A program made the position numbers and the translations under genes. The notes beneath the pieces were generated by a model. It did no database searches. It was given only the letters and a program-made list of their open reading frames with translations, and had not been told where the DNA came from. Of a stretch of 64,000 nucleotides of DNA, positions 8,449 to 47,517 are shown one piece after another (position 1 is the first letter of the stretch; each line of letters starts with the position of its first letter). The DNA lies in contig OY292276.1 in NCBI GenBank assembly GCA_958496175.1, forward strand, positions 12,046,001 to 12,110,000, read 5' to 3'. Source of the DNA: Sisyra terminalis. Its lineage: Eukaryota > Arthropoda > Insecta > Neuroptera > Sisyridae.

Positions 8449-8628
8449 TTAGTTACAAAATCTATCAGGCAAATCTATTACATTCCATTTTTGTAACCTT
8501 CTTATCATCTCACTGTTGTCCAGTAAATTTATTGCGAGATGGTTGGAATGGTCGTTTAGTTTTGTCAGATAATTTTTATTAAACTTTTGAATTTCCTCCA
8601 TTACAGATGGCATTTCTGTATCTTCATG
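8449..8628 (-). pseudogene. Inverted coding fragment of the Penelope-like element
   Basis: Reading the minus strand from 8628 gives an uninterrupted 59-codon frame with a soluble, helical, coding-like composition, containing NHLAINLLDNSEMIRRLQKW, and ending in TAA at 8451-8449. It has no initiating Met at the right edge, where the plus-strand reverse transcriptase begins, so the junction near 8630 looks like an inversion breakpoint. I read it as an N-terminal part of the element's ORF placed backwards, but a fragment of another gene cannot be excluded. Confidence 0.45.
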
Positions 8629-9200
8629 TATTTTTTTATTGTTTACATACCATGGAGCACCGATTAGGCATCATATTGAAAGGAAATTATTCATTAAAAA
8701 ACACATATGAATTTATGAATAATACTAAAAACCTAAAACTACCACAGAACATCAAAATTGCATCACTTGACATTGTTAACTTATACACAATTGTCCCTGT
8801 TGAAGAAATAATCAAAATTGTGGAATATAATCTTATGACATCAAAAATATATAATTATATCGTAATCAACGACATAATGAACTTATTAAGCACCGTATTA
8901 CAACAAAACTATTTCACTTTCAATCAAAAATTTTATCACCAAAGGGAAGGTTTGGCCATGGATTCCCCTTTATCAGGACTACTAGCCGATATTTACATTA
9001 ATCACTTTGAAAATAAATATATTATGAACAATACCTACAAAAATAAAATAGTATATTATGGAAGATATGTTGACGATACATTTATACTATTTAATGAAAC
9101 TACCCGACAGATTGACAATATGGTCTCCGATCTGAACAAAATTAACCAGAAAATAAAATTCACTTCAGAACACAAGTTAAATGGAACAATCAACTTTTAA
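8607..9200 (+). pseudogene. Penelope-like reverse transcriptase fragment
   Basis: Known role: the PLE polymerase copies element RNA at the genomic target. Seen: SLDIVNLYTIVP (RT motif with the first catalytic Asp), QREGLAMDSPLSGLLADIY (canonical PLEs have MGSPLS; here Gly is Asp) and YGRYVDDTF (catalytic YVDD). The frame stops with TAA at the point where homologous proteins continue with a leucine-aspartate-threonine string. The downstream frame (IYRKPT, then a KMAAYSS-like motif) stays readable until about 9518. The first 20 or so codons look unrelated to the family, and the N-terminal domain is missing, consistent with the inversion breakpoint. Clear family assignment; non-functional. Confidence 0.9.
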
Positions 9201-9594
9201 GACACAACAATCATCAAAGAAAATGGAAAGTTGTTATACAATATATACAGAAAACCAACAATAACGAACAGAACTATCCATAAAACATCATTTCAGCCAA
9301 GAAATCAAAAAATGGCAGCTTACAGTAGTATACAGAGCAATCAAGTTCCCTCTTAGCACCAAAGCTCGTGATGAAGAAATTAATATAATTAAACATATAG
9401 CCACTACTAACGGATACAATAGCTCAATCATAGACAAAATAATATCGAAATTTATTAAAAAATCCATTCTTCCAACTCCACTAAAAGAAAAAAAAATATA
9501 TAAAATCAAACTTCAATAATATATCTTTAATTTTACAATCGCCAACTTCCTAAAGAAAAATAACTTCAATATCGCATTTTCAATAAACAACAAC

Positions 9595-9975
9595 ATGATG
9601 AAAATTCTCAAACCATTGGAGAACAACCAAATAAAAACGAAAAATAAAACCGGAATATATAAAATTAAATGTGGTTCCTGTGAAAAATTCTACATTGGCC
9701 AAACTGGTAGATCTTTTGGAACCAGATATAAGGAACATAAACTCAAGAAACCTACTTCAACAATAACTTCAAATTTTACAGAACACCTTTATGACGAAAA
9801 TCATCAATGCTTAAATTTCGAAACAAATTTTAAGCCACTACATATTTGCAAGAAAGGATCACATATGAACACCCTGGAAGAATATGAAATATACAAAGTT
9901 CACAAAATTGATTCAAATAACATCCTTAACGACAAATTATATAAAACAAACAACCTACATGAAATTTGTGACTGA
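9595..9975 (+). pseudogene. GIY-YIG endonuclease domain of the Penelope-like element
   Basis: The sequence TGIYKIKCGSCEKFYIGQTG carries the GIY and YIG boxes separated as in PLE nucleases, followed by the RT(R)YKEH-type helix and an ENH string. Canonical Penelope elements have this nuclease C-terminal to the reverse transcriptase and use it to nick the target. It lies in order after the RT fragment, separated by in-frame stops at 9198 and about 9518. The end at 9975 is only about 15 bp before the tail motif, as in compact PLEs. Confidence 0.9.
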
Positions 9976-9981
9976 CAAAAT

Positions 9982-10030
9982 AATCACTACCTGATGATGA
10001 TAGCCAAAAACTGTTGAAACGCGTCGTAAT
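9982..10030 (+). ncRNA. Hammerhead-type ribozyme motif in the PLE tail
   Basis: The core box CTGATGA is at 9991-9997. Next come helix II (GATAG pairing with CTGTT, two wobbles), GAAA at 10016-10019, the self-complementary ACGCGT (10019-10024) and C at 10025, the expected cleavage site. Helix I has only TAC/GTA adjacent to the core. PLEs are known to carry such minimal hammerheads that act as dimers through a palindromic helix III. One unpaired T precedes helix II, so activity is uncertain. The inverted left copy (7921-7970) has lost the CTGATGA box. Confidence 0.55.
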
Positions 10031-10033
10031 AAA

Positions 10034-10700
10034 GAAGAAATTGAGTCATAGGACATATATTATTATTCATTAATTTCAAATTTAAATAAAAAATTACAAA
10101 ATATTATATATGCAAGAGATAAAGTCTTTTATTTTGGACCTCCAAAACACCAATTAACGACGAAGAAGAAATTGAAGAAAGAAGAAATTGAGTCATAGGG
10201 CATATATTATTATTCATTAATTTCAAATTTAAATAAAAAAGTGCAGAATATTATATATGCAAGTGATAAAGTCTTTTATTTTGAACCTCCAAAACACCAA
10301 TTAACGGCGCCAAAGAAAATTGAAATTTCAATAATTGAAAAATGATCCAATTGGAGCTTTTCCCTTAAACAGCGTATTTCCAGAAAATATACAAACGACA
10401 AACTCAAGCGACAAAAAACACCAATTAATGGTGAACTTTTTTTCGAAAATTTAATATTTGACGAATATCCAAACAGAGCTTTTCTTCATAGGGTTTTCAG
10501 AAAGTATGCAAGTTTCTTGCAGAACTCTCGAGCGATAAAAAAAAACACCAACTAAATCCGCAAAAAAGGTTCGAGATTTTAATATTTGAAGAATGTCCCA
10601 AATCGAGCTTTTTATTTAAACAAGTTTTTTTCAAAAAAGTATGCGAACAATAAAATTTTCTTCCCAAATTTCTTGAGTGACAAAAAAAACCCAATCGAAA
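10034..10700. repeat. Degenerate tandem array downstream of the PLE
   Basis: TTGAGTCATA recurs at 10041 and 10188, with about 130 bp nearly identical after each. The string AAACACCAATTAA or a variant recurs near 10147, 10294, 10416, 10538 and 10683, giving spacings of about 147, 122, 122 and 145 bp. The first two units overlap the PLE tail, so the array may have grown from tail sequence. Confidence 0.75.
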
Positions 10701-13945: not shown

Positions 13946-14081
13946 GCGATATATGCACTACATATAGGCAATAAGCAATACAGATATGCACTGATCGCTA
14001 GACTGTCCAAAAAGCGTTGGTAAAGTATTACTTTCTTTCGGAAAATAAAGTTTAATATTCGATTGTGATTTTAAATTTTAC

Positions 14082-14294
14082 CTGAAATATGGTGTTGACT
14101 TTGTTCCGTACAGCTTCTTCATCCACTGACGGCTCAGAAACATTTCCCATCAAATCGTAAATAGCTGAAACAATATCCGTCATCTCCTCCCTGGTTATGC
14201 ATCCATCACCATTAATGTCGTATAACGAAAATGCCCATCTTAATTTTTCGTCCATCGAACCCCGTGATAAAATTGATAAAACATGAACAAATTC
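14082..14294 (-). CDS. KChIP exon 4 (EF-hand 2 end and EF-hand 3)
   Basis: 71 codons in phase 0, from [12 protein letters not shown] to KVNTIFQ. The acceptor is TTGGCAG at the right and the donor CAG|GTAAAA at the left. It carries [16 protein letters not shown] and the complete EF-3 loop [12 protein letters not shown] (D1, N3, D5, C7 backbone, T9, E12), then the MTDIV helix. The linker [10 protein letters not shown] before the next exon is the usual variable region between EF-3 and EF-4. The frame is uninterrupted. Confidence 0.96.
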
Positions 14295-14371
14295 CTGCCA
14301 AATAAGAATCCAATTAACGTTACACACTAAATGCCAGAAATTCCCAATAATAATATCAATAAATTATTTAC
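14295..14371 (-). other. KChIP intron 3 (77 bp)
   Basis: Donor GAG|GTAAAT, acceptor TTGGCAG. It is the only compact intron in the gene. It splits the last two acidic residues of the EF-2 loop (E180 and E181). Confidence 0.93.
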
Positions 14372-21995: not shown

Positions 21996-24100
21996 GGTAC
22001 TGAGGGCCCCTCAATTTGGATTTCTAATCGAAAGGGTGATAGTTTATTTTGAGTTTATTTTGAATGGCATGGAAAGCACTTGAGTAAAGACGTAGGAAAA
22101 CTTTAAATTTTAAATAAGTTAAAAGTGAAAAGATATATTTAAATAATATATTACATGTACTATTGGGCCAATAATACATGCAATTAATGGATCAACGTTA
22201 TCATTTCGACTAGAAGTCGTTTATCGGCTAATGAAAATTGCCATTGCTGTGCCATTAATTGACATTCTTGGCCCAGCGATGGCCCAATCTAGGGCCGATT
22301 TCCAAACTTTGTATGGGTATTCCGATTCAAACCACATGACAAAGTTTTGATTTATTTTATCATAATTTTCTCGCCATCGGGAAAAAGGAGGCTTTTGAGC
22401 TTTTTTCATTTCCTTTTATTCTATAGTATGAATTATATAGAGCTTGTAAGCATGCATAATTTGTCCGTAGAAAACTCGATCCATCTTCTCCATGTGGTGA
22501 GAGATCTTCTGATTTTGGCATGTTTTTCTTGTAAGTTTTTCTGGGCTGTATCCTAGATGGGCTATTGCAGACCAACATTGTTACATTCTCAGTTCATCAA
22601 TATATTTAACTATTGATAAATTTAAGCAAGCACCATGCATAATCCTTAAAGATTTTCAACAGTTCATGCCAAGACGATTCTATGGAACTAAGGTGGATAC
22701 CAGCCAAAGCTCGTCAGCCAAAAAGTATGTAAAAGCCAGTGTCCTTCCTCTTCAGATATTTCTTGCATCCACTTGACTCAGTATTAACTTTCATAATTTG
22801 AAGATGTTTCTTCGGATTAGAAGCCTATTAACAGGTCTACAAATATTCTGATTTTTTTTCGTTCCTCAGTTTTGGAATTTTTTGCTGTAGTATCTTTGAA
22901 AATTACCTTCATTCATGCTAAGATCTTATTGAATCATTTACTTGTCCAATTGTGCAAATCCATCCTTTTCATAAATGAAAGTTTGAGCTTGATTTTGTTA
23001 GGAGATATGTTTTTTTAATGCTTTTTATGTTTGCATGTAACTTAATTAAATACTGCCCAAAAGCTTATGAGGGTTTTACCCTCTTAAACCAATTTGGAAC
23101 TGGTCTGATGAGGCTTAAAAACTTTTATTACTACTCGACCAGAAGAAAAGATTATTCTTATTTTGTCGTGATATTTTCCAGCATGCATGCATTAATCACG
23201 TAGATTTCCATTTGAAATATTGTAAGGACTTTCCTAAGTCCAACGAAAATTCGTTTTCTAGAACTTCCAACCTCATATACTGATGTTCTTCTTTAAATTG
23301 TTCTCAAGGGAATTAAATACAATGTCCAAAAAGAATATGAGAAATTGTTTCTTCAGATCTTTCTTCTAGTTTGTAAATAGTTTCCTCAGCTTCCTCAAGC
23401 TCAAAACGCTTAAGAGTAGTAGAGAAGTAAAGGACCAAAACCATAAAAATAAAAAAATGGCTTCATTAATAGTATTTGGTTCATATTCAGACAAATTTTA
23501 ATATGTTCTTAAGCAAGTAAAAAATATTTTACTATTGGTAATTGAAATACAAAGAAAGCATTATAAAAATGAAGATGATTTTATGGAGTGGGATTAGATC
23601 TAATTTAACATATCAACGAGACCAATTTGTATATTTGTAATATCATAAAAATAATTCTTTTGATTTTAATCCTACTTCTTCGTACAATAAACATATCAAT
23701 GGTGATCAAAATAATAATTTTTCACTGACTTTGAACAGTTATACTGTGTAAACAATATATAAAATATAGTGCGATCCAATTTATGTAGTATAATTTAATA
23801 TAATAATATATAAAAATCATACCATAAATATAAATTTGAACAGAAGTTCAAACAAAAACATTTGTGACATATTGACCAGATACGTATTTCGATTGCCAAG
23901 CAATCTTCCTCAGTAGTCATCAAGTAGTTTGGATCACTCCGTAACTGCTTTGTGTTGTGTATTGCCCAGATACGTATTTCTATTGCCAAGCAATCTTCCT
24001 CAGTGATCATCAAGTAGTTTGGATCACTCCGTAACTGCTTTGTGATGATTCACGAATCCTCATAAAATCATCACAAAGCAGTTACGGAGTAATCCAAACT

Positions 24101-24153
24101 ACTTGATGATCACTGAGGAAGATTGCTTGGCAATAGAAATACGTATCTGGGCA
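24101..24153 (+). ncRNA. Hammerhead ribozyme motif, unit 1 (probably damaged)
   Basis: CTGAGGA at 24113-24119, helix II GATTGC/GCAAT, and AGAAA in place of CGAAA, which breaks the base pair closing helix II. ACGTAT follows and then C. Helix I, TGATCA with TGGGCA, has one mismatch. It is a degenerate copy of the unit at 24197. Confidence 0.45.
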
Positions 24154-24196
24154 ATACACAACACAAAGCAGTTACGGAGTGATCCAAACTACTTGA

Positions 24197-24243
24197 TGAC
24201 TACTGAGGAAGATTGCTTGGCAATCGAAATACGTATCTGGTCA
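24197..24243 (+). ncRNA. Hammerhead ribozyme candidate, unit 2
   Basis: The core CTGAGGA (24203-24209) fits CUGANGA. Helix II is GATTGC, loop TTG, GCAATC, six perfect pairs. Then GAAA (24226-24229), self-complementary TACGTA (24230-24235), U and C at 24236-24237, the predicted cleavage site. Helix I TGACTA (24197-24202) pairs over six positions with TGGTCA (24238-24243). All three helices are present in a type I order. One extra A between the core and helix II departs from the strict consensus. The palindromic helix III implies action as a dimer. Confidence 0.6.
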
Positions 24244-24701
24244 ATATGTCACAAATGTTTTTGTTTGAACTTCTGTTCAAATTTATATTTATGGTATGAT
24301 TTTTTGTTATTTAAAGAAACGATAAATTATAAATGCTTCGTTTGATTTGAATACAGCACTTGTGTAATAAATGTCTAACAATCTTACATTCAAGTTATAC
24401 AATTTGATAATTAAATCATTTCAAGTTCAACATAAGAGCGTTGAACTATGATAGTTGAAATTATAATTAACCAAACGTTTTTACCACAAGCGATTTTCGT
24501 AGTACACACGAAACCATATCATATATCAGTATATCAAGCACAAATTATTATTGAAAATTCTATTAAATGGATCATTAAACAATTATATCGAATGTACACT
24601 CGAACAAATCCCAATGCAGATAAATAGTTTCGTAGCGTTTCGTTTCGGGTTCGATTGTAAAATTACATCGAATATCCTTACACTACAATCCCAAAACTCA
24701 C

Positions 24702-24896
24702 CACCTTGTGGAAAAAATTGTGAATAGATCATTTTGAAGGTTTCCTCGCGAACGACTCCTGTGGGACATTCAGCTTTGAAGCCTCTGTAGATGACTTTAA
24801 GCTCGGCCTCGGAAAAGCGCGTAGCACGTCGTAAAGATTCCAAACTATCCGGCCGATATCTGGGAATTGGTTCGCCTAATTCTTCAAGTTCGGAAT
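24702..24896 (-). CDS. KChIP exon 2 (degenerate EF-hand 1)
   Basis: AT at the right edge completes an Asp codon begun in exon 1, then 64 codons SELEELGEPIPRYRPDSLES to FFPQG, then G of the next split codon. The acceptor is TTTTAG (right of 24896) and the donor GTGAGT. ELKVIYRGFKAECPTGVV and EETFKMIYSQFFPQG are family signatures. The first EF loop has Cys-Pro in place of calcium ligands, as in all neuronal calcium sensors. The hammerhead palindrome ends only about 400 bp downstream of it. Confidence 0.96.
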
Positions 24897-26782
24897 CTAA
24901 AACAGAATAAAAATATTACAATTAATATATATGTTTATTTTACCAGCAAAATGTTCACCAGTTATACTGTACTATCACGGTATTTCAGTAAAAAATTTGC
25001 TAACAAAATATACCATCTCTTCTGTATTTGTGAAACATTTGAGGAAGTTTTAATAATTTACCAATTTTGAAATATTCATAAAATTTGCAAAATTGATTAG
25101 TTAGCTGTAGTACATTTGTTATTCTATCGACTAGTAGTTTTGGGTTCAAATCAAAAAATTTAAAAGAAAAATCATAGTATTGTAGTTATGAAAAATATTA
25201 GCAATCAATACCGATTGAAAATTTAGAGAAAAAATCATTAAATTATAAATTTTTTTGGCGAAAAAATAATTCCAAACTAATCACGTAGTTACATAAATTG
25301 ACCAAAAGGTAGAAAATCGATGTATTTTATTATTGCAAAGCAATTACAAAATTTAATAATTTGATTAAGTAATTACGATAATATTTGAATGTTGATAGCA
25401 TCCGTTGTTTTGTCTAAAGTTTCCTCTTGTTTCTACAATCTACTTTCAAAAGCTATTTATTTCGGTAATTATCTTTTCAATTAAATGGGAAATTTTAACG
25501 ATTTTAACCTTTGCCAACCTATCCTTTTGTGTGACAGGTTGTTTTTAACGATTTCAACGATTTCTCTTATCTGTATCGATGGATCATTCGACAAATATAA
25601 AATTTTTCAGCGATAAAGTGCTACAATTTTCAACAGGTGGCTCATAAACTTTGGGTTGGTAATAACTTTATAATTTTTTTTAATTCATACGTTCCTTCTT
25701 TATGACTTCTTTGGTGTAAAATTTTGACTATAATTAAAAGAAATTGATTTTTGCCTAATTTCAGTTTCCTCCTCTTTTTTTTTGTATAATATTGAAAATT
25801 CGATCTATTAAAGTATACTGATCAGATTTAATTTAAAAAAACAAATTAGTTCTATTGATTAAAGTAAATGTTCATCAATGATTCTTTTATATTGGGAAAG
25901 TATAGGAAAATTTGTATTTATATTTTCAAAAAACGGGAATCAGAATGCTTATAAGTCTGTAAACTATGACCAGAATGATAAATGCTGGTCCAAGGAAAGA
26001 AGAAGGAAAAATTCAAGCAATTCTTTGGTACATAAACTGGGAATTGAAAATTTTTAGGTAAAATTTGGGAAATAAGGCTTTGGAAAAATATGAAAATTAT
26101 ACAATGGATAGAAGAGTTGGAGAAAACAGAAGTAGAATTGCAAAAGAGAATGGACCGTTGGTTGACCAATCGTTAGAAAAATATACCGAAAGGATGTAAG
26201 TAAAGTAAAATTGAGAGTAAAGAAAGCACCAAAAAGAAGATGATGAAAACCAAAGATGGACAAACTACCAAAGAATTTAAAGTACATATTGATTTGAAGA
26301 AAATCAATAAAATTTTATTGATTAGAAAATTAAAATTATAACACTGCAAAGAATAGATCTTCAGAAAATATCACGAGAACTTTTAGAAGGAAAATATCGA
26401 GTAAATCAAATACACCAATCAAATTAATGAAGAAAAAACGATACTCAATGTGGTAACAAGAAAAAAGTTAAAAAGATTTCAAATTTATAATTACTATTGT
26501 TAAAAAGAACTTAAAAAAACTTAAAAAAACTTAAAAAAACGAAGAAAAAGAATTGATATCCTGGACTTGTTGACTTGACGAACAAATACCTGCTATCCCT
26601 CATATAAAATGGAAGAAAGGTACCCAGAAAATTCCGTGTTTTATACGACCTAGCATTAGTATAAAAACTGGGAAATATTCCAAAAATTAGATATATTAGG
26701 TTAGGAAAATAAAAATTCAGTAATTTAACCTGAACATCAAAGTTTAATCTTATATGTTTTGGATTGTCTAATTTTGGAAAAA

Positions 26783-32689: not shown

Positions 32690-33636
32690 CTAGCTGATCT
32701 CCGCAACTTCGTCTGCGTAACGTAGGTGTAGATTATGTTTTCTTTTCAAATTTGCCATTTGTAGTGGTATATGAAAATTTTTATTTTTCTTATTTCTTTT
32801 ACGAAAAACATAATCATACTTAAAAACACTATTTTGTCAACTTTAAAAAGACATATTTAATAAACTGTTGCAAAAAATAAAATTGTTCTATGTAATAATC
32901 AATTAATTTTCAAAAAATATTTAAAATATCTAAAAAGAGTATGTCTATTGCGTATAGCTACGGTAGGTATTACTACCGTAAACCAAATTATCTGTAAATC
33001 AATCAGCATCTATACATAAATAAAAAATATCGCCAAGTTCAATAAAGTTGGTCTTAATTATAAGTAAAATGCGGTGACCATGCGACATTTTTCAAATAAC
33101 TTACATTTTTAAACTTGTGATATCTTTAGAATGGAATGTTCAAATTGAATAACTCAAAAAGTTATAAAATGGTATTGAAGCAAACTTAAATATGAAGTCA
33201 TTTATTTTGATAAGGATTAATCTCAAAGTATAAATAAAAGAGCTTTTCTAGCGGTGGCATTTATATATATTTTTTAAAATGAAAAAACAGTTATTGTGAC
33301 ATAACTATAATAGTTAGACATATGCTGTCGCTCTATTTTTTGTAGATAATGATATGTTCTGCAAAATCGTAGTACATCATTTTGTTCTTTAACCAATAGT
33401 TTTCGCAGCGCACGCGATAAAAGAATGTTTTTTGGTATTTTTTTCAGACCTTGGGTTACATTATTGGAGTTTTAATATAGATCCCTAACTTTTTTGAAAA
33501 TTTAATATAACCTATGTTCACCGGAAATAATGTAGCTTCCCAACAGTGAAAGAATTTTTCAAATCGGTCAAGTAGTTTCGGAGCCTATTCAAATCAAACA
33601 AACAATCAAATCTTTCCTCTTTATAATAATAGAAGA
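32690..33636 (-). mobile_element. Non-autonomous Helitron, copy 2
   Basis: Same family as copy 1. The CTAG 3' end is at 32690-32693 (minus strand) and a TC 5' end at 33636-33635. It shares GCGTATAGCTACG and CAAATTATCTGTAAATCAAT with the other copies. It inserted between A and T inside the Tc1 transposase gene. Confidence 0.8.
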
Positions 33637-34040
33637 TTATGCCAAATCTTAATGAGTTTGGTCATCAGATCCACTCGTGTTGTAATAGTTAATTTTTTTA
33701 GTTTTTTCTTCCCATTGGCCCAAAAATTTTCCATGGGATTAGCATCAAGACTACTTCCTGGCCAAGAAGGCACATTAATGTTAGAATTTTTGTGGAGATC
33801 CATAACTTTTTTGGCTTTATGGCAAGGAGCTCCATCCTGCATAAAGATAAAATTTTCTTCCGGAAACCACTCTTTAGTTTGAGGTAATAACCTTGTTTCC
33901 AAGACTTGTATATATTGGTCTTGCCCCATAGTACCTTCCACAATGAATATCCTACCGGTACCCTTTGCTGACATGCAGCTACAAACCATAACTGATGTTG
34001 GATGTTTTACAGTCTGGGTGATATATTGCTGGAAGAAAGT
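33621..34040 (-). pseudogene. Tc1-like transposase, C-terminal half
   Basis: The readable frame begins about 34040 with QYITQTVKHPTSVMV and continues SAKGTGRIFIVEGTMGQDQY, ENFIFMQDGAPCHKAK and WPGSSLDANPMENFWANGKK. These match the Tc1 DDE domain: the second catalytic Asp (MQDGAPCH) is kept, and the PMENFW box holds the third acidic residue. Canonical elements have SPDLNPIEN where this has SLDANPMEN. The last codons and the stop at 33621 come from the inserted Helitron, giving an artificial end. The first catalytic Asp and DNA-binding domain are lost. Confidence 0.88.
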
Positions 34041-34216
34041 AAAAATCTTCTTTTGAGTCTAATAATTTTCACACTTCACAGGTGGCCTCACGCGCCACGT
34101 GACGTATCCAGAAAAAATTCGTACATATCTTCAGACTGATTCAAATTTCAAAATTCTTCGTATGATGTCATTTTTTTTTCTAAAGGGGCAACCTGTGTAG
34201 TTTAGAAACCTTGGAT

Positions 34217-41903: not shown

Positions 41904-42562
41904 ATCTTAATGTGAATCTGCTGGAAAATTCGTGAAATGACTATTGAAAAACTTTTGGGTATCAATTTTATTTCACCACAAAACTGCAACGATGGAAGTT
42001 TTACTTACTAAATAAACTTTTCAAAAGCTAAATCAATCTTAAAACTAATTTGGTTTTTAACTAAAATTGCTAATCGAAAAAAAAACTGCGTTAAGATTGA
42101 TGAAAAAAGAACAAACATAAATTACATTAAACTGCAATTAAGTTTCACTGGAAATCTTAATTAGTTTAGAGTAGAGCTATGCAGTTTGGAGACAAGTTGT
42201 TGTTAATACTGTGTTATTCAATTAGAATATCAATTTTGGGATTAGTTGTTAGTTAATTCGGTTAGTTGTTTGTAAATTAATGTGTAAGTTTGTGTTCAAG
42301 TTGAATTGAAGAATTGTATATTGTGCATTTGTGTTATGGAATATAGAAACGCCAATAGAATTCGGTTAATGCATAAGTAATTTTGACAAAACATAATTTT
42401 TCAGAGTTTCATGAGAAAATAAATATCGATGGCATTGTTCACACATGGTAACTACTTATAGATTGATTAAAAATTCAAATTCAAAATAAGGCATTTTTAA
42501 AACGTCTTATTGGAATTAATACAGGCAATTGAAAATAGAAGGCTATAAAAAGTAAAAACTTT

Positions 42563-43030
42563 AGTGTGTATACAATATATAGAATATATTGCGGTTCAAT
42601 TTATGTAGTATAGTTTAATATAATAATATAAAGAAATCATACCATAAACATAAATTTGAACAGAAGTTCAAATAAAAATATTTGTCACGTATTGTCCAGA
42701 TACGTATTTCGATTGCCAAGTAATCTTCGTCAGTGGTCATCAAGTAGTTTGGATCACTCCGTAACTACTTTGTGATGATTCACATTCTATATATGCAAAA
42801 CGGAGTTACGGAGTGATCCAAACTACTTGATGACCACTGAGGAAGATTGCTTGGCAATCGAAATGCGTACCTACGCAATACGTTACAAATATTTTTATTT
42901 GAACTTCTGTTCAAATTTATATTTATAGTATGATTTTTATGTATTATTATATTAAATTATACAACATAAATTTGACCGCAATATATTCTATATAATGTAT
43001 ACACAGTATAACTGTTCAAAGTCAGCGAAA
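42563..43030. repeat. Second hammerhead palindrome (one unit per arm)
   Basis: Left flank TATAGAATATATTGCGGTTC and right flank are inverse copies, as are the unit-bearing arms 42630-42780 and 42795-42945. Only one unit is present per arm, against two in 23718-24304. The right end CAGTATAACTGTTCAAAGTC is the inverse of the first palindrome's left end. The flanks also match the first palindrome. Confidence 0.85.
42831..42880 (+). ncRNA. Hammerhead motif in the second palindrome
   Basis: CTGAGGA at 42837-42843, helix II GATTGC/GCAATC perfect, GAAA at 42860-42863, then TGCGTACC in place of TACGTATC. Helix III is no longer self-complementary and helix I is weak, so this copy is likely inactive. 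The inverted left-arm copy keeps GAAATACGTATC but has CTGACGA and a disturbed helix II. Confidence 0.45.
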
Positions 43031-43549
43031 AAATCTTATTTTGATTAAAAACTTTAGTTTTAATGAAAAAAGTTGATTTTCATGGATTAAAAACTATATG
43101 TGCAATCGTTAATCGAAGTCTTAATATTTTCTGGTGGCTTATAAAATGTAGGTTTAAATATAAATTAAGAATTTTTTATTGTTGTACTTGACATTTAAAA
43201 ATTATATATTATGGAGAATATGGTATATTTTATGGAGAATAGAATGTGCCAGAAGCATCTGAAACTTTCAAAAGTTTCTAGTCCTGAGCCAAATAAGCCA
43301 CAAGACGGTTAACCGTCAACAATCAACAGTAAGACAGTGACAAGTAACAATCCAAAACAATTTAAAACTGTTAATCACGGAAAGATACAAGGATACCGAA
43401 CGGTATAAGCTTTTTTAAAAAATTCATGTACATAAAAACCGATCCAGATTATAGTTCTTTTTTCTGTCACTAACAGCGCAAGTATTTAAAACCTACCAAA
43501 GGTCACTAAGGTTTTAAGACGGTATTCCAATCCTGCAAAGCATTAAAGA

Positions 43550-46595: not shown

Positions 46596-47517
46596 CAGGG
46601 TGCTTCAAAAAATGTATACACACTTTAAACTATTGTAGTTTTCCCGCTCTACAAGGCTAATGTTATATTTCTTCGCCAGGTGCCAGCATAATCGTCCCTC
46701 TATGTTATATTATTAGTTGGAATTTGTAATATCAACATGGGGGACGTACGTTTGAGTTTTGAAGAACGTAAGCAGGTTATTAAGTGGTACTGGAAGTTTG
46801 AGAATGTAAATGAAGTTCAAAGACAGTGGAGAAGAGAGTATACAGAACCACCTTCAAGATTAACAATTACACGCATACGAGACAAATTCGAAGTTCATGG
46901 AACAGTGTGTGATGTGCATAAAGGTCATTCAGGTCGGCCTTTTCGATTTGGACCTTTTCGATTTGAAGGCACTGTAACTGGTATTAATTACCTAACGATG
47001 CTTGCTGATTCCATATTTCCTGCCATTCGTGCATTATACGGTAATGATGATTTTTATTTTCAACAAGATGGTGCTCCGCCGCACTATCACAGGGACGTAC
47101 GAGCTTACCTGGATCAAAATTTGTCGGGCCAGTGGATAGGACGCAGGGGGCCAATCGAGTTTCCAGCACGCTCTCCAGACCTTACACCACTGGATTTCTT
47201 CTTGTGGGGCACAGTAAAAGATGAGGTGTACAAACGTAAACCACGTAACCTAGACATTCTTTGGAATGAGATTCAAGCAGTGTGTAGAGAAATCTCATTG
47301 GACGTTTTGATACGATGTACAGAATCAGTGGTGACTCGTACTCAGAATTGTATTGATGCTGCAGGTCACCAATTTGAACAGTATTAACATTTGTTATTTA
47401 TGTTTCATTTACATTGGACTTTCAGCTTTCTATTTTCCTGAAATTTAACTTTGTAGAACGGTAAATAAATTTTCTATGGAAGTTCAAAGTGTGTATACAT
47501 TTTTTTGAAGCATTCTG
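46596..47517 (+). mobile_element. Internally deleted mariner-like element, 922 bp
   Basis: Ends CAGGGTGCTTCAAAAAATGT and the inverse of CAGAATGCTTCAAAAAAATG, about 37 bp of TIR, with TA on each side (46594-46595 and 47518-47519). It contains a single plus-strand ORF. It inserted 69 bp downstream of the KChIP exon 1 donor, in intron 1 and in antisense orientation to that gene. Confidence 0.9.
46737..47387 (+). pseudogene. Mariner-type transposase with internal in-frame deletion (216 aa)
   Basis: N-terminal helix-turn-helix: LSFEERKQVIKWYWKFENVN to GHSGRPF, about residues 5-65. Then a short GPFRFxG repeat and the C-terminal half of the DDE domain with FYFQQDGAPPHYHRDVRAYL (second catalytic Asp) and ARSPDLTPLDFFLWGTVKDE (third catalytic position). 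About half of the usual length is missing, including the first catalytic Asp and the linker, so it cannot transpose. The frame is nevertheless fully open from ATG to TAA at 47385. Such a protein would keep DNA binding; whether it is expressed is unknown. Confidence 0.9.

Follow-up and report, generated by a model that had tools for sequence, protein, structure and literature searches.

Among the Penelope elements of Adineta, inverted repeats are most often arranged head to head, target-site duplications (TSDs) of 8-10 bp occur, and a 31-bp tail is carried by one of the inverted pseudo-long terminal repeats (pLTRs), according to PMC3846280. Here we analyse a palindrome in a 64,000-nucleotide stretch of the neuropteran Sisyra terminalis (assembly GCA_958496175.1, contig OY292276.1, positions 12,046,001 to 12,110,000, forward strand; henceforth the window, 29% G+C, within a genome of 376.6 Mb). 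Very probably it derives from a Penelope-like element (PLE), as a short copy in which two 3' ends, each truncated on its 5' side, meet head to head. An earlier note, made from the sequence alone, had called mirror-image arms unusual for small hammerhead-bearing repeats; set beside the Adineta elements they are not, as head to head is the commonest inverted arrangement reported in PMC3846280.

Inverted head-to-head pLTRs, short TSDs and a tail at one end are shared between the present family and the endonuclease-containing Penelope elements of Adineta vaga (Pen2a_Av and others), for which solo pLTRs are also listed as a common trait (PMC3846280). The two differ in dimensions, the tail being about 42 nt here and 31 bp there, and the TSDs 9-15 bp here and 8-10 bp there; the head-to-head pairs in S. 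terminalis span only 355-1005 bp (16 of the 17 elements examined) and the core of the hammerhead motif is found 2754 times.

A second system for comparison is Poseidon of Anolis carolinensis (PAc; PMC11167929), which shares a protein with reverse transcriptase (RT) and GIY-YIG domains and a hammerhead beside the open reading frame (ORF). The PAc protein cuts and extends both target strands, and the PAc tail corresponds to the sequence that separates two RT start sites, to which the tail of about 42 nt found here may be likened (PMC11167929). The two motifs are placed differently: that of PAc extends over the beginning of the ORF in a tandem copy, and the present one lies behind the ORF stop. 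The PAc hammerhead cut only with PLE protein, and hammerhead mutants still insert; the methods of the same paper mention that PLE hammerheads had earlier been seen by the same authors to cleave themselves at 3-25 mM Mg (PMC11167929), and the evidence on self-cutting of PLE hammerheads in general is mixed. In the review PMC6155905, these hammerheads are mostly minimal, with helix III short or missing, as is also the case here. The present motif has an extra base between A9 and helix II, which may be no difference from the published PLE motifs.

Identity of the repeat unit: a Penelope-like 3' end

The arms of the palindrome lie at 23805-24050 and 24066-24311, are 246 nt long each and 98% complementary, and are separated by a 15-nt gap. 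Each is made of two tandem units at 90-bp spacing, which are 94% alike in the left arm and 93% in the right, so that the tandem 90-bp units within a palindrome described in the earlier note were confirmed in both spacing and complementarity. Likeness to the family covers 23702 to 24304, and arms and family matches together delimit a head-to-head PLE-derived element over this interval (no strand assigned).

The identity of the unit was given by a related locus, L049, in which a 696-amino-acid open frame ends in ...VNHHKAVTE (...RDYFVNHHKAVTE) and a stop inside the unit, followed by the hammerhead motif. This frame matches RVT_1 (E 5.4e-9), and the GIY-YIG residues are invariant columns in an alignment of the frame with nine relatives, several of which carry the Pfam GIY-YIG domain. 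The best named protein relative, at 48%, is from the lacewing Chrysoperla carnea; no solved structure was matched by the frame at E<=0.01, and no relatives with flanks turned up in viral contigs. In the palindrome, comparison with the end of the L049 frame places the final codons and stop (HKAVTE and stop) at 24162-24182 (+), at the start of unit 2. Ahead of the unit, the last 18-20 PLE codons are likewise present in L016 and, in two copies, in L009; L023 contains a piece of RT. Because the unit holds the last codons and the stop of the L049 frame, which brings RT and GIY-YIG together in the same element as the unit, it represents a PLE 3' end in which the ORF of the element stops, and the hammerhead motif lies directly behind that stop. 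L049 is itself arranged head to head: its two strands carry copies of unequal length, long on one and shorter on the other, with the 3' ends facing outward, and it is flanked on both sides by TTCAAAAGATGAT.

Head-to-head pairs, target duplications and tails

Twenty loci (L009-L028, the best 20 non-window matches of the 50 listed) were fetched, and 13 of the 20 copies stand in head-to-head pairs, some with a partial second arm; no whole tail-to-tail pair was found among the fetched loci. Likewise, among the core places listed for C1, a count by hand of neighbours less than 1 kb apart gave 13 pairs, of which 11 were (-,+), one (+,-) and one (-,-). From the family matches, 17 head-to-head elements were picked by hand, leaving out the eroded older pairs L014:8275-8471, L022:3837-4022 and L024:1588-1980; neither end is tailed in the first two of these. 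Duplications were sought with ends allowed to shift within about 12-16 nt and with 20 displaced controls per element. Target duplications of 9-15 bp were found at the outer ends of 16 of the 17 elements (11 exact, five with one mismatch), and in each of these 16 none of the 20 controls reached the duplication score. A tail of about 42 nt is present on exactly one end in 17/17; of the tail-less ends, 14 stop at or near GTGTATAC and three stop farther in. The sampled head-to-head copies are therefore bracketed by short target duplications of variable length and tailed at one end each, both of which are PLE traits.

In the palindrome the 3' tail, recognised by sequence comparison, belongs to the left arm, beyond GTGTAAAC, at 23703-23745 (-), and the right arm is without one. 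The window holds a second head-to-head element of the same family at 42566-43045; TAAAAACTTTAGT, its 13-bp target duplication, occupies 42553-42565 and 43046-43058. Inverted pLTRs, in the pairs, and tandem pLTRs are both present in the family, the latter in L013:4755-5135, where three direct tandem units with CTGATGA cores are repeated with a period of 114 bp.

The hammerhead motif

The motif of unit 2 (24197-24243, +) reads, in order, TGACTA, CTGAGGA, an extra A, GATTGC-TTG-GCAATC, GAA, ATACGTAT, C17 and TGGTCA. All predicted pairs of helix I (6/6) and helix II (6/6) are present, giving a minimal hammerhead with the conserved core and three helices, one extra A included. As a monomer helix III would have at most 2 bp and a 4-nt loop, whereas the 8-nt palindrome ATACGTAT would be available to a dimer. 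The cut would be expected between 24237 and 24238, a placement already proposed in the earlier note and in agreement with our partition of the motif. The same note had drawn a hammerhead layout with a six-pair helix I for unit 2, which is borne out, and had credited each unit with a 6-bp helix II, which is true of unit 2 only: unit 1 (24107-24153, +) is eroded, with 5/6 pairs in helix I, 5/6 in helix II and a G.A at the base of helix II. It had also missed the extra A that separates A9 from helix II, at 24210. A viroid hammerhead with an additional base in its core is the subject of a study listed as ref. 28 in PMC6155905. That base reportedly lies at the same place, and minimal hammerheads of PLEs are said to have been described by Cervera and De la Pena in 2014.

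The left arm carries the mirror of unit 2 at 23873-23919 (-), found by pattern scans and the strict descriptor, and an eroded mirror of unit 1 at 23963-24009 (-), found by pattern scan and sequence. Unit 2 and its minus-strand mirror are the only matches to the strict descriptor within the window, so that motifs do occur on both strands, as had been claimed, and no match was obtained in 200 dinucleotide-preserving shuffles. The loose CTGANGA...GAAA pattern matched 18 times in the window against 3.36 expected, with 6/18 of these matches coming from the palindrome's family (23.9-24.2 and 42.7-42.9 kb).

A comparable motif is associated with a second PLE family, remains of which are found at 8583-9972 (+) by profile matches, with an RT frame at 8583-9197 and a GIY-YIG frame at 9520-9972, the latter matching at E 0.042 only. 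Behind it, at 9985-10033 (+), lie CTGATGA, an extra T, GATAG/CTGTT, GAA, ACGCGT and C, with helix I paired at 4/5; the remains, taken over 8583-10324, also hold a 147-bp tandem repeat. The second family has at least 152 RT matches in the genome (from the best 150 of 1318 candidates scored), and its motif was seen at eight places in 7/20 loci. Four copies were partitioned by hand (the window motif at 9991, L030, L045 and L047; the other place in L030 has the same sequence), and helix II was full in 4/4 and helix I in 2/4, while the motifs of L031, L033 and L038 look eroded. The letters of helices I and II differ between the two families and the layout is the same. In L030 the second family, too, is arranged head to head. 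We regard the hammerhead-type motif as real, in the sense of a sequence motif.

A single-strand fold of 24190-24250 showed no extra stability relative to shuffles (z -0.52). For RNA read through the entire palindrome, the predicted structure is one nearly perfect hairpin of about 240 bp (-428 kcal/mol). The earlier note had proposed that either transcript could self-cut; because the predicted full-length hairpin should mask the motif, self-cutting appears doubtful for the palindrome's own copy. Dimers folded with energies below those of two monomers. These folds were nevertheless not taken to support a hammerhead in dimeric form, as helix II is paired across strands in the dimers predicted for unit 2, L049 and L030. 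Matches to microRNA families in 23700-24400 stayed under their gathering scores and are put down to the palindromic nature of the region.

Copy number and variation of the core

The 35-nt core, with N7 left free, occurs exactly 1383 + 1371 = 2754 times in the genome, while the same pattern read backwards has no occurrence there. The 85-nt unit has at least 50 genome matches (the best 40 of 534 candidates scored), of which 41, with the window's two included, are at least 96% alike over 82-85 nt, and an 82-nt stretch is matched perfectly by all the best 40 of 892 candidates. The family is therefore abundant and, given these perfect copies, partly young.

The most variable position of the core is N7, which is other than G in 1230/2754 cores (T or A among the variants listed). 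This would fit a free position of the core, and may reflect no more than a few subfamilies. Among 28 equal-length copies, conservation is below 90% at N7 and at two columns of helix I, and nowhere else; these copies came from 29 finds of a fuzzy scan that missed further copies, the palindrome's own units included, and having been gathered by likeness to the unit they overstate conservation. Within the family the helices show almost no sequence variation. The catalytic G5 is changed in 63/2817 otherwise exact cores, and a base of the helix II loop in 47/2801.

As a separate observation, at C1 19780612-19840075 the PLE unit and RT matches occur in mirror order on both sides, about 27 kb apart. 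This order suggests either that a large segment has been duplicated in inverse orientation or that the assembly is at fault there.

Origin of the palindrome

The structure of the pairs could be accounted for as follows. The PLE endonuclease would cut both target strands with a stagger, and both target 3' ends would prime reverse transcription on the element RNA, from two internal start sites some 42 nt apart. Synthesis would end early, and the two cDNAs would be joined mid-element, head to head. Such two-sided priming from two start sites would explain the target duplications, the single tail and the unequal arms together. The tandem 90-bp units may have arisen from a template jump and would then have been present in both arms. 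The hammerhead would be of the minimal PLE type with a palindromic helix III. It may be active while the element RNA is free, perhaps in dimeric form or aided by the PLE protein, but hardly in a transcript holding both arms. More tentatively, PLE integration might be two-sided and unequal by rule, with the halves of a dimeric complex using different RNA start sites, which would lead every head-to-head insertion to have one tailed and one tail-less end; if so, the many short pairs of this genome would record the rule directly.

Several observations weigh against this account. No target duplication was found for the palindrome's own element, the one exception among the 17, and its right arm is short; its origin is for this reason inferred from its relatives. 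Its arms are 98% alike, both units included, as fold-back copying would also give. Seven of the 20 fetched copies are unpaired (L009, as retrieved, L013, L016, L017, L018, L020 and L023), and in the rearranged L026 the inner pieces are in (+,-) order. L049 is a 5'-truncated head-to-head copy with its first codons in the opposite arm, no complete master was found, and the Pfam GIY-YIG match of its frame (E 0.016) is below the cut-off of that family. As regards the ribozyme, G5 varies as often as the loop base, so that there is no sign, from these sequence counts, of selection on it among the copies. Lastly, the comparison with Rfam covariance models that the earlier note had called for gave no hammerhead match at the gathering threshold over the window and none even at E<=10 over 23700-24400. 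Hammerheads were likewise not found by Rfam in L049 or in the window motif of the other PLE family at 9991; because the latter is also without a match, covariance models may fail to pick up hammerheads of the minimal PLE form.

The alternative that survives best concerns the joining step and leaves the PLE identity intact, so that its likelihood overlaps with that of the explanation given above. Here the palindrome of a PLE insertion would arise by fold-back, a cDNA or antisense transcript priming itself and being copied back, which is the reading preferred in PMC3846280. Complementarity between the arms reaches 98% over 246 nt, against 93-94% likeness between the units of one arm, and since the arms are more alike than the units within an arm they share one source; fold-back is the better explanation for this agreement, tandem units included. 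It predicts matching arms, however, while L049 pairs the long frame with only its last third and the arms of L010 are unequal (90% and 96% to the unit), and fold-back alone leaves the single tailed end in 17/17 unexplained. We consider it possible, though on the doubtful side.

That the hammerhead core is a coincidence within the PLE end is improbable. The lack of an Rfam match, the lack of added folding stability and a G5 no better kept than a loop base are what it would lead one to expect. On the other hand, 0/200 shuffles match the strict descriptor, the layout recurs, with different helix letters, in a second PLE family, and all available PLE sequences carry hammerhead motifs according to the review PMC6155905.

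Still less probable is a retrozyme-like repeat, in which 90-bp hammerhead monomers would spread as small circular RNAs. The tandem units with core and palindromic helix III, and the three tandem units in L013, do recall the animal retrozymes, described in PMC7229834, also from insects, as short units in tandem that bear type I hammerheads; a type I-like hammerhead in tandem units is indeed shared. However, unlike those retrozymes, the unit here is the end of an ORF-bearing PLE and not a non-coding monomer bounded by cut sites. The tandem junctions lie off the cut site and differ by locus (period 90 in the palindrome, 114 in L013), and no head-to-tail repeat of the unit is present in 18/20 fetched loci (the other two being L013 and L026) or in the second element of the window. 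The kinship suggested by the earlier note, to retrozymes or to Penelope tails, accordingly holds for Penelope, as a PLE ORF shares this 3' end in L049, and is not supported for retrozymes in view of that ORF end and the duplications around the pairs.

A DNA transposon with long terminal inverted repeats (a miniature inverted-repeat transposable element or foldback element), to which mirror-image ends reaching about 250 bp in length might point, can be given scarcely any credence, as the duplications range from 9 to 15 bp, the ends are unequal, one being tailed and the other not, and the end is held in common with an RT/GIY-YIG frame. Equal inverted ends with a fixed-length duplication were looked for in the 17 examined elements and were not found.

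The architecture of the palindrome is ordinary for the PLE group, and a striking structure is explained as a PLE insertion of a described kind. Being abundant (2754 exact cores) and partly young, the family can be used as a record of PLE insertion, a process only partly known, and also of whether PLE hammerheads matter.

Other features of the window

Exons resembling those of a KChIP-like calcium sensor lie on both sides of the palindrome, at 14055-14363 (-) and, in an open frame, at 24586-24915 (-); together they place the palindrome in a likely KChIP intron. The window begins with a tandem repeat (1-281, period 74 bp, 3.8 copies), and it also holds two transposase-like frames, one with a DDE_3 domain at 33624-34058 (-) and one with a DUF4817 helix-turn-helix at 46692-47384 (+).
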